From contig CADAGC010000012.1 in the NCBI GenBank assembly GCA_902787365.1, positions 1-41,282 on the forward strand: a stretch of 41,282 nucleotides of DNA. The letters are read 5' to 3'. Under the pieces are notes generated by a model that had not been told where the DNA came from, ran no database searches, and saw only the letters and a program-made list of their open reading frames with translations. Within the stretch, counting starts at the first letter, position 1. Every line of letters starts with the position of its first letter. The stretch is from an uncultured Ruminococcus sp. GTDB lineage: Bacteria > Bacillota > Clostridia > Oscillospirales > Ruminococcaceae. Shown here piece after piece: positions 2,987 through 34,959 of the stretch. The translations under genes and the position numbers were made by a program.

Positions 2987-3472
2987 TTATTTTGGAAACT
3001 TAGGTAAAAATGGCCTCTCGCACCACCTTTTAAAGCGGAATGGGCGGCTCGTTTCGGGCTCTATGGGAAAGACAAAGAGCGAACGTATGCCTTTAAGATT
3101 ACAGCCCAAAACATCTGTAAAAATCTGATCACCCACAGATGCAACGTATTTTTTAGGTATTCCAAGTCTTTTGATAGCCCTTGTATAACCGAAAGTCAAA
3201 GGCTTTTTGCCTTCACACTCAAAATCGACGCCGAGCTTATCGGCAAAGGGCTTTACCCTTGTCGGGTGATTATTTGAAACTATGATAAGCGAGATTCCCG
3301 CAGCTTTCATGGCATTTATCCAATCAAGGCTCTTCTGCGGCACCTCGGGATTATTATGTGTAGTTAGTGTATTATCAAGGTCGAGGATCAGCGCTTTTAT
3401 CTTTTTCTTTTTCAAAAATTCAGGCGTGATATTCCCTACCTTATCAAAAACATATGTCGGCTTAAAAAGCAT
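2987..3472 (-). CDS. yqeG: YqeG family HAD-superfamily (subclass IIIA) phosphatase
   Basis: A 161-aa HAD hydrolase. Motif I is ALILDLDNTLTTHN near residue 28, with the nucleophile and acid aspartates DxD. Motif II is IVSNNH near 63 and motif III/IV is VGDQIFTDVLG near 112. Both length and the N-terminal PTYVFDKVGNITPEFLKKK are typical of YqeG proteins, which in Firmicutes usually neighbour the GTPase YqeH and the aroE/yhbY/nadD cluster. Its substrate is not established. Its ATG lies just after the rpsU terminator with AGGAG 5 bp upstream, so it is expressed by read-through or from an unseen promoter. Confidence 0.93.
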   Translation of the reverse strand: MLFKPTYVFDKVGNITPEFLKKKKIKALILDLDNTLTTHNNPEVPQKSLDWINAMKAAGISLIIVSNNHPTRVKPFADKLGVDFECEGKKPLTFGYTRAIKRLGIPKKYVASVGDQIFTDVLGCNLKGIRSLFVFPIEPETSRPFRFKRWCERPFLPKFPK

Positions 3473-31685: not shown

Positions 31686-31714
31686 TTGAAATGCCAATAA
31701 AAATATAGTATAAT
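31686..31714 (+). promoter_or_regulatory. Promoter of asnB
   Basis: Plus-strand TTGAAA (31686-31691), 17-bp spacer and TATAAT (31709-31714). Seven bases after the -10 is 31721, the first base of the leader RNA closing stem. It is divergent from the small-peptide promoter, ~85 bp away. Confidence 0.9.
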
Positions 31715-31720
31715 AGTATT

Positions 31721-31792
31721 AAGGCATACCGCACAAGGTCGTGCGGCTGTGGAGTCTGTTTTGGCAGACTCTTACGGGTTATGCCTTTTTTT
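31721..31792 (+). ncRNA. Three-way-junction leader RNA with terminal U-run upstream of asnB
   Basis: P1 is AAGGCATA (31721-31728) with TATGCCTT (31780-31787). P2 is CCGCAC/GTGCGG (31729-31746, loop AAGGTC). P3 is GAGTCTG/CAGACTC (31752-31771, loop TTTTGG). Junctions are 0, 5 (CTGTG) and 8 (TTACGGGT) bases. The 3' strand of P1 runs directly into seven Ts, so the whole fold acts as an intrinsic terminator, 20 bp before the asnB start. GCCTTT (31783-31788) can alternatively pair with AAAGGT (31798-31803), which would break P1. The layout suggests a riboswitch-like attenuator or a ~70-nt small RNA. It is too short for a T-box and I recognise no known class. Confidence 0.75.
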
Positions 31793-31812
31793 ATTTGAAA
31801 GGTGAGGTAATT

Positions 31813-33654
31813 ATGTGCGGTTTTGTAGGCTTTACAAATTACATTGGCGATAACGGTGACACCCTTGAAAAAATGATGAACAGGATCAGACATCGAGGCC
31901 CTGATTCTGACGGAAAATACATTGATGAAAACGTAGCTATGGGCTTTCGCAGACTTTCTATCATAGACCTGTCTGACAACGGCAGTCAGCCGCTTTTCAA
32001 TGAAGACAGAAGCCTTGTGCTGACTTTTAACGGCGAGATCTATAACTACCAGGATTTAAGAAAAGAGCTTTTGGCGGCAGGCCACAGCTTTTACACAAAT
32101 ACAGACTCCGAGGTACTTATTCACGGCTATGAGGAGTGGGGCGAGGAGCTTTTGCAAAAGCTCAGGGGAATGTTTGCTTTCGTAATATATGACAAGACAA
32201 AAGGCAAGCTCTTCGGCGCAAGAGATTTCTTTGGCATAAAGCCACTCTACTATGCAAAAATGGGCAATACCTTTATGTGGGGCAGCGAGATAAAGGCGTT
32301 CCTCGACCACCCCGATTTCAAAAAGGAAGTCAATGAGGACGTACTCGAAACATATTTGACATTCCAGTATTCCCCTACTGAGGACACATTCTTCAAGGGC
32401 GTAAAGAAGCTGCCTGCAGCTCATTGCTTCACCTATGAGAACGGCATTCTCGATGTCAGAAGATACTGGGAGATCAAGTTTGAAGCAGACGAAAAGCCCA
32501 CTCTTGAAGAATGGGTGAACAGGATTTCCGACACATTCAATGATTCGGTTAGAGCTCATAAGATAGCAGATGTTGAGGTAGGCTCATTCCTTTCAAGCGG
32601 TGTCGATTCAAGCTATGTTGCAGCGGCAGCTAATGTTGACAAGACCTTTACCGTAGGCTTTGGCGAGGACGAGAAATACAACGAGATTGGCTATGCCAAA
32701 GAATTCTCAAAATACATCAGCAAAGAAAACACCTCCGAGGTCATTGACCCGAACGAATACTGGGGCAATCTTCCCAAGATACAGTATCACATGGACGAGC
32801 CTCTTGCCGACCCTGCTGCAATAGCGCTGTTCTTTGTGTGCAGGCTCGCATCAAAGAGCGTCAAGGTCTGCCTTTCGGGCGAGGGCGCTGACGAGATATT
32901 CGGCGGCTACACGATTTATAAAGAGCCGACAGACGTAGCAATTTACAACCACGTTCCGAGACCTATCAGACGTGGTATTGGCGCTGTATGCGAAAAGCTT
33001 CCTCAGAAGAGAGGCCTGAACTTCCTTGTAAGGCGTTCAAGAAACCTTGACGAGCGTTTTATCGGCAACGCCTATATGTTCTCCGAAAAGGAAAGAAAGC
33101 AGCTTCTTAAAGTCAAGACCAACGCCCCCGATGCCATGGCGATAACCAAGCCGTTCTACGACAAGGTAAGGGACAAGGATGCACCCACACAGATGCAGTA
33201 TCTCGACCTGCATTTATGGATGACAGGCGATATTCTACTAAAGGCCGACAAGATGAGCATGGCTCACTCGCTGGAGGTCAGAGTGCCGTTCCTTGACCGC
33301 AAGGTAATGGACATGGCAGAGGGCATACCCGTGCGCTACAGGGTAAACAACGAAAACACAAAGTACGCAATGCGTATCGCCGCCCTTAAAGACTGCCCGC
33401 CGCAGACAGCAAACAAGCCCAAGCTTGGCTTCCCCGTGCCTATAAGAGTATGGCTCAAAGAGGATAAATACTACAACATCGTTAGAGAAAAGTTTGAGAG
33501 CGACATCTCAAAGCACTATTTTGACACGGATATGCTCATCAAGCTACTCGACGAGCACAGAGAGGGCAAGTTTGACAATTCGAGAAAGATATGGACTGTG
33601 TTCTCATTCCTTATCTGGTATGATGTTTATTTTAATGACAAGTGGGATTTATAA
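31813..33654 (+). CDS. asnB: Asparagine synthetase (glutamine-hydrolysing)
   Basis: Makes asparagine from aspartate, ATP and glutamine. The 613-aa protein has the N-terminal class II glutaminase domain (Cys2 in MCGFVGFTNY, RHRGPDSDGKY near residue 32, NGEIYNY near 76) and a C-terminal synthetase domain. The PP-loop is LSSGVDSSYVAAAA near 262, then CLSGEGADEIFGGY near 355 and KLGFPVPIRVW near 538. The frame extends to 31741, but that lies in the leader RNA; ATG 31813 leaves Cys2 as the mature N-terminus and has GGTGAGG five bases upstream. It is the only plus-strand gene, convergent with rarA. Confidence 0.98.
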   Translation: MCGFVGFTNYIGDNGDTLEKMMNRIRHRGPDSDGKYIDENVAMGFRRLSIIDLSDNGSQPLFNEDRSLVLTFNGEIYNYQDLRKELLAAGHSFYTNTDSEVLIHGYEEWGEELLQKLRGMFAFVIYDKTKGKLFGARDFFGIKPLYYAKMGNTFMWGSEIKAFLDHPDFKKEVNEDVLETYLTFQYSPTEDTFFKGVKKLPAAHCFTYENGILDVRRYWEIKFEADEKPTLEEWVNRISDTFNDSVRAHKIADVEVGSFLSSGVDSSYVAAAANVDKTFTVGFGEDEKYNEIGYAKEFSKYISKENTSEVIDPNEYWGNLPKIQYHMDEPLADPAAIALFFVCRLASKSVKVCLSGEGADEIFGGYTIYKEPTDVAIYNHVPRPIRRGIGAVCEKLPQKRGLNFLVRRSRNLDERFIGNAYMFSEKERKQLLKVKTNAPDAMAITKPFYDKVRDKDAPTQMQYLDLHLWMTGDILLKADKMSMAHSLEVRVPFLDRKVMDMAEGIPVRYRVNNENTKYAMRIAALKDCPPQTANKPKLGFPVPIRVWLKEDKYYNIVREKFESDISKHYFDTDMLIKLLDEHREGKFDNSRKIWTVFSFLIWYDVYFNDKWDL

Positions 33655-33693: not shown

Positions 33694-34959
33694 TTATCTT
33701 CCTTTTATCTTATCCCAATAAGCCTTTGAAGCCTGTTCGTTCTTGTTCTCACCATAGGTGTAATAGGTCTTATCCTTAAGGCTGTCGGGCAGATACTGCT
33801 GCTCGACCCAATGATTAGGGTAATTATGCGGATAAAGGTAATGCTGTCCCTTGACCGCCGCACCCTCGCCGTCAAAATGCTTATTCTGCAAATGGCGTGG
33901 GAAATCACCCGTGATGCCTTTTCTAATATCGGAAAGCGCTGCATCTACAGCAAGGTAGGCGCTGTTTGATTTGGGCGCTGTTGCAAGGAGTATCACCGCA
34001 TCAGCAAGAGGAATACGTGCTTCGGGAATACCAAGCTGCAAAGCGCTGTCAACACAGGCCTTGGCTATTGTAATAGCCTGCGGATAAGCAAGGCCTATAT
34101 CCTCACTCGCAATAACCAGCAAGCGGCGGCAGAGTGATATGATATCACCCGCCTCTAAAAGCTTTGCCGCATAGAATATCGCCGCATCAGGGTCAGAGCC
34201 TCTTATTGACTTCTGCAAAGCAGACAGCTCGTCATAATGCTCATCGCCTGCCCTGTCGTAACGCATATTGCTTCGCTGTGTAAGGGTCTTGACTATATCC
34301 ATACGAACAGTAAGGGTTTCGCCGTCATTATCGGCAGAAAGTGCGCACAGCTCAACTGTATTGATACTCTTTCTAACATCACCGCCGCAGCCTCTTGCTA
34401 TGTGCTCGACAACACCCGGTTCAAGCCGCAGCTTCATGCCTATATCATCAGCCGCAAGCTGAAATGCACGCTTGATAGCAGGAATTATATCCTCAGGCGT
34501 TATCGGCTTGAACTCAAAGACCGTAGAACGGCTAATTATAGCGTTATAAACGTAAAAGTAAGGATTCTCGGTGGTAGAACTGATGAGAGTTATCTTTCCG
34601 TTTTCGATGTATTCAAGGAGTGACTGCTGCTGTTTTTTGTTAAGATACTGAATCTCGTCAAGGTAGAGCAGTATGCCGTTATAGCCCATGAGCGTGTCAG
34701 TCTGCGAGATAATATCCTTGATATCATTAACAGAAGCCGAAGTGCCGTTGAGCTTGCAAAGCTGCATATTAGCATTCTCTGCGATTATTCGGGCAACAGT
34801 TGTCTTGCCCACACCCGACGAGCCATAGAATATCATATTCGGGATATGACCGCTTTCGATTATTCGGCGAAGCGGCCTGCCCTCGCCTAAAAGTTCACGC
34901 TGGCCTACGACCTCGTCAAGAGATGTGGGGCGTATCCTGTCTGCAAGAGGGGCGGGCAT
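33694..34959 (-). CDS. rarA: Replication-associated recombination protein A (MgsA/RarA AAA+ ATPase)
   Basis: AAA+ ATPase, related to clamp loaders, that acts at stalled replication forks. The 421-aa protein starts MPAPLADRIRPTSLDEVVGQ. Walker A is YGSSGVGKTTVARI near residue 46, Walker B LLYLDEIQYLNKKQQ near 98 and sensor 1 LISSTTENPYF near 128. An arginine-finger segment (AIISRSTVFEF) and the C-terminal RarA tetramerisation region (PLADAVILLATAPKSNSAYL, then LYPHNYPNHWVEQQYLPD) follow. The ATG overlaps the metA stop by one base (TGATG), with GGAGGG inside metA, so the two are translationally coupled. Confidence 0.97.
   Translation of the reverse strand: MPAPLADRIRPTSLDEVVGQRELLGEGRPLRRIIESGHIPNMIFYGSSGVGKTTVARIIAENANMQLCKLNGTSASVNDIKDIISQTDTLMGYNGILLYLDEIQYLNKKQQQSLLEYIENGKITLISSTTENPYFYVYNAIISRSTVFEFKPITPEDIIPAIKRAFQLAADDIGMKLRLEPGVVEHIARGCGGDVRKSINTVELCALSADNDGETLTVRMDIVKTLTQRSNMRYDRAGDEHYDELSALQKSIRGSDPDAAIFYAAKLLEAGDIISLCRRLLVIASEDIGLAYPQAITIAKACVDSALQLGIPEARIPLADAVILLATAPKSNSAYLAVDAALSDIRKGITGDFPRHLQNKHFDGEGAAVKGQHYLYPHNYPNHWVEQQYLPDSLKDKTYYTYGENKNEQASKAYWDKIKGR

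Follow-up and report, generated by a model that had tools for sequence, protein, structure and literature searches.

A probable MITE-derived three-way-junction terminator in the asnB leader of a group of Ruminococcus genomes

Introduction

A short and strongly folded RNA lies between the promoter and the start codon of asnB in an uncultured Ruminococcus sp. (contig CADAGC010000012.1, positions 1 to 41,282 of the forward strand; this whole stretch of 41,282 nucleotides is called here the window). The question that this locus raises is what such a leader does and where it came from. An earlier note, made from the letters of the window, read it as a riboswitch-like attenuator or a free small RNA. 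Based on our comparison of sequences, the element is probably an IS5-type MITE insertion behind the promoter that was kept as a transcription terminator or attenuator of asnB. This reading is drawn because the 5' half of the element is like the end of a repeat that is dispersed in the genus, the repeat has 4-nt duplications and IS5-family elements have the same ends.

Results

The asnB leader and its fold

The product of asnB is an asparagine synthase (TIGR01536 match of 515 bits against a cut-off of 267), and the downstream neighbour of the gene is a long ORF on the opposite strand (33694-34959). The earlier note had proposed a TTGAAA-17-TATAAT promoter with the first base of stem P1 seven bases after the -10 box, and this is what we find (31686-31714, with the P1 5' strand from 31721). 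The promoter has 11 of 12 consensus matches and ranks first among the 10 promoter-like sites that a 900-bp stretch contains, where shuffled sequences hold a mean of 2.9 sites. The layout of TTGN(A/C)A, 15-19 nt and TATAAT is present in 49 of the 78 asnB leaders scanned. The same leader element was found in three relatives, L003, L012 and L013, the last two being Ruminococcus assemblies RGIG7024 and RUG12579. The features of the locus are as follows.

31686-31714, plus strand: asnB promoter, TTGAAA-17-TATAAT (promoter scan).
31721-31728, plus strand: P1 5' strand, AAGGCAUA; predicted transcription start and probable left end of the MITE relic, from which one A is missing (fold, repeat comparison, alignment).
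31729-31746, plus strand: P2 hairpin, CCGCAC-AAGGUC-GUGCGG, with hexaloop AAGGUC (fold, repeat comparison, alignment).
31747-31777, plus strand: P3 hairpin, 12-13 bp, with a bulged U at 31772; its origin is untraceable (fold, repeat comparison, alignment).
31778-31779, plus strand: the sole unpaired junction bases, GU in the window and AGU in two relatives (fold).
31780-31787, plus strand: P1 3' strand, UAUGCCUU, presumably what is left of the right terminus (fold, alignment; L013 retains GGTATTGCCTT).
31786-31792, plus strand: U7 tract, where termination is predicted; found in 4/4 relatives (leader reading).
31813-33654, plus strand: asnB, asparagine synthase (glutamine-hydrolysing), 613 aa (ORF list, TIGR01536).

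When the leader RNA is folded as 31719-31812 it reaches -36.2 kcal/mol (z -5.0), which none of 200 shuffles matched. The fold is a three-way junction with P1 of 8 bp, P2 of 6 bp and P3 of 12-13 bp, and the U7 tract overlaps the end of P1. The two hairpins had been described as perfect and of 6 and 7 bp; this is right for P2, whereas P3 is in fact 12-13 bp long with one bulged U. The segments CUGUG and UUACGGGU had been taken to be unpaired, but CUGUG pairs with UACGG and forms the base of P3, so that in the window, L003 and L012 only 2-3 junction bases (GU or AGU) are free; L013 retains the outline too. The seven Us at the P1 3' strand do lie 20 nt ahead of asnB (U7 at 31786-31792, ATG at 31813), and the end of the element is at 31792 rather than at 31803 as first given.

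By folding prefixes counted from 31719 we see the first pairs of P1 at 66 nt and the whole stem at 70 nt. Terminator hairpins are usually compact, and a P1 that closes over a three-way junction departs from this form; a simple terminator scanner gave no site at the asnB leader, because it allows only loops of 3-8. A competing pairing of GCCUUU with AAAGGU had also been suggested. The letters do allow it, but its 3' half comes after the terminator in the transcript and has no counterpart in L013, the most diverged relative, and no conserved alternative pairing was found in the four leaders (window, L003, L012 and L013).

Occurrence in other genomes

The window has no Rfam match at the gathering score, and a relaxed search gave none with E below 0.7; the T-box model in particular gave no match at either threshold. 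This agrees with the view that the leader is neither a T-box nor a known riboswitch class. At the gathering score nothing was found for the repeat-bearing loci described below or for nitrogen-gene leaders either.

We compared 82 asnB leaders, namely the window, L003 and 80 loci that are the best 80 of 374 relatives by protein scan. Four of these loci (L054, L064, L065 and L072) have less than 97 nt upstream of asnB, which cannot fully tell, and they were omitted from the comparisons of 78 leaders. The element is present in 4 of the 82 (window, L003, L012 and L013), all within one genus. A covariance model built from three sequences finds all four at E <= 5e-10, including L013, which is outside the model (E 5e-10), while the next-best match (E 0.015) is a plain hairpin just behind another asnB. 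The window, L003 and 66 of the 80 loci were covered by this search, and the other 14 were read by eye and scored against the repeat. Of the seven genus genomes three do not show the element; these are incomplete (58-76%), and a close asnB was found in none of them.

Across 396 genomes of the family, a sample of a larger group, the model gave matches at E <= 0.1 in 21 genomes, the four asnB leaders included, and only those four asnB leaders are convincing. Sixteen further matching loci (of 17 other genomes) are mostly plain hairpin terminators, some of them without a U tract, and none has the P1-P2-P3 sequence. One of the further matches, L129, is a branched terminator of different sequence, and the two best (G146 and G285) lie between two convergent ORFs.

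Conservation and covariation

The element starts six bases behind TATAAT in 4/4 relatives, and GGCAUACCGCAC is strictly conserved at its 5' end in all of them. Between the window and L003 the element is changed at 5 of 75 positions (two gapped columns), against 108 of 221 fourfold sites of asnB (p 3e-12); the values for L012 are 10 of 76 against 103 of 225 (p 1e-7). In L013 the changes are 10 of 73 with 12 gapped columns, and there the fourfold sites are near saturation.

In the four-row alignment 96% of the cells are paired, compared with 37-57% when it is slid. Two-sided changes are seen in 4 of the 12 P3 pairs, a count that 2 of 500 shuffles reached; weaker measures of covariation, the number of cells with two-sided changes and the number of pair types, were reached by 23 and 19 of 500 shuffles, respectively. 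These counts come from four sequences in an alignment fitted to a model that was built from three of them. Covariation supports P3 only, because P1 and P2 hardly vary. The alignment of related leaders that had been proposed as a check yields covariation in P3 and no conserved unpaired motif.

All four elements are without one A in the left end, and the window, L003 and L012 are also without the matching T in the right end. We infer that this paired loss was compensatory and gave back a perfect P1.

A dispersed repeat and its candidate IS5-family partner

The repeat was first spotted post hoc, in gltB leaders during the reading for ANTAR hairpins described below; the scores were computed later and its terminus was taken from dispersed copies. 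In the gltB leader of genome G006 it reads AGGGCAATACCGCAC...GTGCGGTATTGCCTT. With at most one mismatch, AGGGCAATACCGCAC has 23 matches (9+14) in the window's own genome; the counts for the six other genomes of the genus run from 4 to 62, with 62 in G006, and the reversed control has 0-2 per genome. Among 30 repeat loci that were read, three matches look like chance (L174, L182 and L195). At least one match is present in 19 of 34 genomes examined from other Ruminococcus, and four of them have 17 or more.

In 60 stretches of G000 and G006 we found 54 two-ended copies (14 and 40, with at most 3 mismatches an end), of which 25 are 176 bp long and ten are 41-87 bp long, and 9 single ends, one apparently spurious. 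Exact 4-nt direct duplications flank 37 of the 54 copies, where re-paired flanks gave a mean of 13.4 and a maximum of 22 in 2000. As 17 of these duplications are not self-complementary and none is inverted-only, they are target duplications and not parts of longer inverted repeats. IS5 elements favour YTAR targets.

Two 1.1-kb elements in other Ruminococcus (L207, 408-1513; L208, 378-1513) have the termini of the repeat with CTAA on both sides, and they encode IS5-family transposases (NF033581, 320.8 and 287.2 bits). Such elements are candidates for the autonomous partner of the repeat. No autonomous copy was found in the seven genomes of the window's genus; PF01609 is present in one of the seven, at loci without the motif GGCAAYACCGC. 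IS630 was considered as a source of the repeat and rejected, with PF13358 in none of the seven. In the part of the open-licence literature that we searched, no title among those listed describes this repeat and nothing was found on a MITE in Ruminococcus.

The repeat was not found in plasmid records. Five unannotated faecal records labelled as phage contain copies or parts of it (including MT835572.1, 24962-25136), and these are perhaps misassigned bacterial fragments or perhaps carriers. In the window's own genome, five contigs (C5, C11, C38, C104 and C121) have their first ~97 bases inside an apparent copy (three were read), and therefore the repeat probably broke the assembly.

Probable descent of the asnB element from the repeat

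The 5' half of the asnB element, that is the P1 strand and P2, matches the terminus of this repeat, which is dispersed through all seven genus genomes. The window has TTAAGGCA-TACCGCACAA in the place of TTAAGGCAATACCGCACAA of the repeat, and a P2-like hairpin ends some of the repeat copies, e.g., L239 and L259. When the extended left end of the repeat is scored against the window, the asnB site reaches 39 and the next best site in the 41 kb, on both strands, 23. Among the 78 asnB leaders the top scores are 39 for the window, 32 for L003, 31 for L013, 29 for L030, 20 for L012 and 18 for L049. With the short end the window scores 16.5 against 11.5 for the best of 3000 shuffles; L012 and L013 are equalled in 5 and 2 of 3000, respectively. 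Against full copies of the repeat the window scores 35 (shuffle maximum 26 of 200) and L013 34 (maximum 30), while L003 (31, maximum 31 of 200) and L012 (26, maximum 30) are not significant alone and are counted as relics because they are orthologous with the window element. A control leader, L079, scored 44 against full copies, above every asnB element, through an AT-rich inner match without the termini.

The right terminus is recognisable in L013 only (GGTATTGCCTT). The flanks of the asnB element are TTAA on the left and TTTT on the right, and a target duplication is not preserved. P3 as a part of the repeat is not supported, with 28 to 181 of 200 shuffles as good.

In other genera, plain terminators at L123 (G268, three places in C34) and L127 have a stem, AAGGCAUA.../...UAUGCCUU, that is nearly identical to P1; these may be chance or further relics of the repeat. 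For this reason P1 alone is insufficient for descent, and the case is made by P1 together with P2.

Another asnB leader, L030, from a more distant Ruminococcus, carries a short copy of the repeat without a U tract, ten bases behind the -10 box. This copy aligns nearly end to end with repeat copy L238 (42, shuffle maximum 30), in a genome with 29 matches to the repeat and an AsnB 80% identical to that of the window. It is possibly a separate insertion near the same promoter rather than the result of common descent.

Hexaloop hairpins and the ANTAR question

Substrate RNAs of ANTAR proteins are described as two adjacent hexaloop hairpins with A at position 1 and G at position 4 of the loop, and they were proposed for nitrogen genes (Ramesh et al., 2012; PMC3369931). 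One option is that under nitrogen shortage an ANTAR response regulator binds hexaloop hairpins of the asnB leader and blocks termination, which we consider unlikely. The P2 hexaloop has A1 in 3 of 4 relatives and G4 in all four; ANTAR proteins are encoded in 7/7 genus genomes, with three in the window's own genome, one of them directly behind glnA; and the amtB leader of that genome has dual A1/G4 hexaloop hairpins before a terminator, with a spacing of 24 as in eutP. The L013 asnB leader also has a formal dual A1/G4 hairpin. Yet, the second hairpin is absent from the window, L003 and L012, the P2 loop of L012 has G at position 1 and leaves that leader with no complete A1/G4 hairpin, and 98 of 5000 shuffles give the second hairpin of L013 by chance once the first is there, a figure uncorrected for the four leaders. 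The repeat ends often read CCGCACAAAG, so that descent explains the A1/G4 letters of P2. Moreover, P1 and P2 are compatible, and therefore binding to P2 alone would leave the terminator shut. Since the second hairpin exists in L013 only and the repeat has the same loop letters, we do not claim that the asnB leader belongs to the ANTAR substrates, although it may resemble them in the way it works. A wider version, that the transposable element brings ANTAR-like hexaloop hairpins together with a terminator and so recruits genes such as asnB to a nitrogen antitermination regulon, seems to us more doubtful still.

The leaders of other nitrogen genes were also read. Six amtB leaders of the genus (L163, L164 and L166-L169, where L168 is the window's own genome, C117, minus strand) have attenuator-like hairpins behind a promoter and U-tract terminators, and hexaloops with A1 and G4 read by eye among them are AACGAG, AAGGGC, AACGGC and AAAGAC. 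No such hairpins were found in amtB leaders L162 and L165, and L163, L166 and L168 have no Rfam match. The gltB gene, divergent from amtB (L163, plus strand, 3050-3440; opposite strand in L164 and L168), has two terminator-like leader hairpins, and the hexaloop of the first is AAAGGC. Between these hairpins and gltB, genome G006 has a full copy of the repeat (176 bp).

Discussion

A mechanism that fits these data is that the shrunken MITE termini would make P1 and P2 of the transcript, and that these, with the added hairpin P3 and the U7 tract, would form an intrinsic terminator with a three-way junction, the first base of which is also the first of the transcript. Polymerase would start at ~31721, and P2, then P3, then P1 would fold during emergence of the RNA, with P1 completed as the U tract is made. 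Some or most of the transcripts would then end at U7, which gives an RNA of ~72 nt, and the fraction that reads through would be the asnB mRNA. The main role of the element may be that of a damper that holds read-through low, possibly modulated by a protein. Termination at U7 is predicted from the sequence; the element would lower the expression of asnB, and selection would act on this function. The terminator or attenuator part of the first reading, with its alternative of a free ~70-nt RNA, is in line with the structure, the U7 tract, the fixed distance to the -10 box in 4/4 relatives and the covariation of P3; its ligand pocket does not fit.

The conserved 5' half, the leader position, the terminator and the three-way junction could be taken as marks of a new class of small ligand-binding riboswitch, with a pocket in the unpaired junction as had been supposed. 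We find this very improbable: the junction is nearly fully paired with no conserved unpaired stretch or motif, the switch pairing is not conserved and is not in L013, the element is seen solely before asnB of one genus in the genomes searched, and descent from the repeat together with pairing explains the conserved 5' half. In the open-licence literature no paper was found on an asparagine synthetase riboswitch of Ruminococcus.

Its own promoter and terminator, with the 5' conservation noted above, are also what would be expected of a free small RNA of ~72 nt that acts in trans, in which case asnB would be expressed by read-through only. This is quite improbable, as all four copies lie before asnB, no conserved unpaired seed exists and the promoter resembles the asnB promoter of species free of the element. 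A passive relic with no function, or a stabiliser of the mRNA 5' end in which U7 is incidental, would find a parallel in the L030 leader with its apparent repeat copy and no U tract; but the low divergence of the element compared with fourfold sites and the presence of U7 in 4/4 relatives make this reading, too, an unlikely one. The MITE-derived terminator is the explanation that we prefer.

If it is true, the asnB leader is a four-species case of a bacterial MITE from which a nitrogen-assimilation gene has gained a cis-acting RNA, while the parent repeat is still abundant in some of those genomes. Compact structured leaders that are found by folding alone can be the termini of transposons, and they should be compared with the dispersed repeats of a genome before they are labelled as riboswitches.

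The element can be compared with several known systems. With T-box leaders and known amino-acid riboswitches it shares a (here predicted) terminator-based control before an amino-acid gene, and unlike them it is without an Rfam match at the gathering score and without a conserved ligand motif. With the ANTAR substrate RNAs (PMC3369931) it has in common the nitrogen gene, the terminator and a first hexaloop hairpin with A1/G4; it differs in that the second hairpin is missing in the window and that hairpin and terminator are not mutually exclusive. With IS5-family MITEs it shares the termini GGCAAYACCGCAC, and the dispersed copies have 4-nt target duplications, the family being assigned by the transposases of L207 and L208; the asnB copy differs in being cut to ~67 bp, with the duplication lost and an inner hairpin of untraced origin. 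The closest known kind is that of the mobile attenuators, where 5' and 3' terminators of IS elements and BIMEs are described as exapted leader attenuators in Enterobacteria and bacilli (Naville and Gautheret, 2010; PMC2965389). In both cases a leader terminator is traced to a dispersed element, and its retention as a regulator is proposed; the difference is that here, in Ruminococcus, the termini would be those of an IS5-type MITE that is non-autonomous, remodelled into a three-way junction and with signs of constraint in four species. The asnB element would thus be a mobile attenuator of an unusual three-way-junction form, with signs of constraint and with predicted termination.
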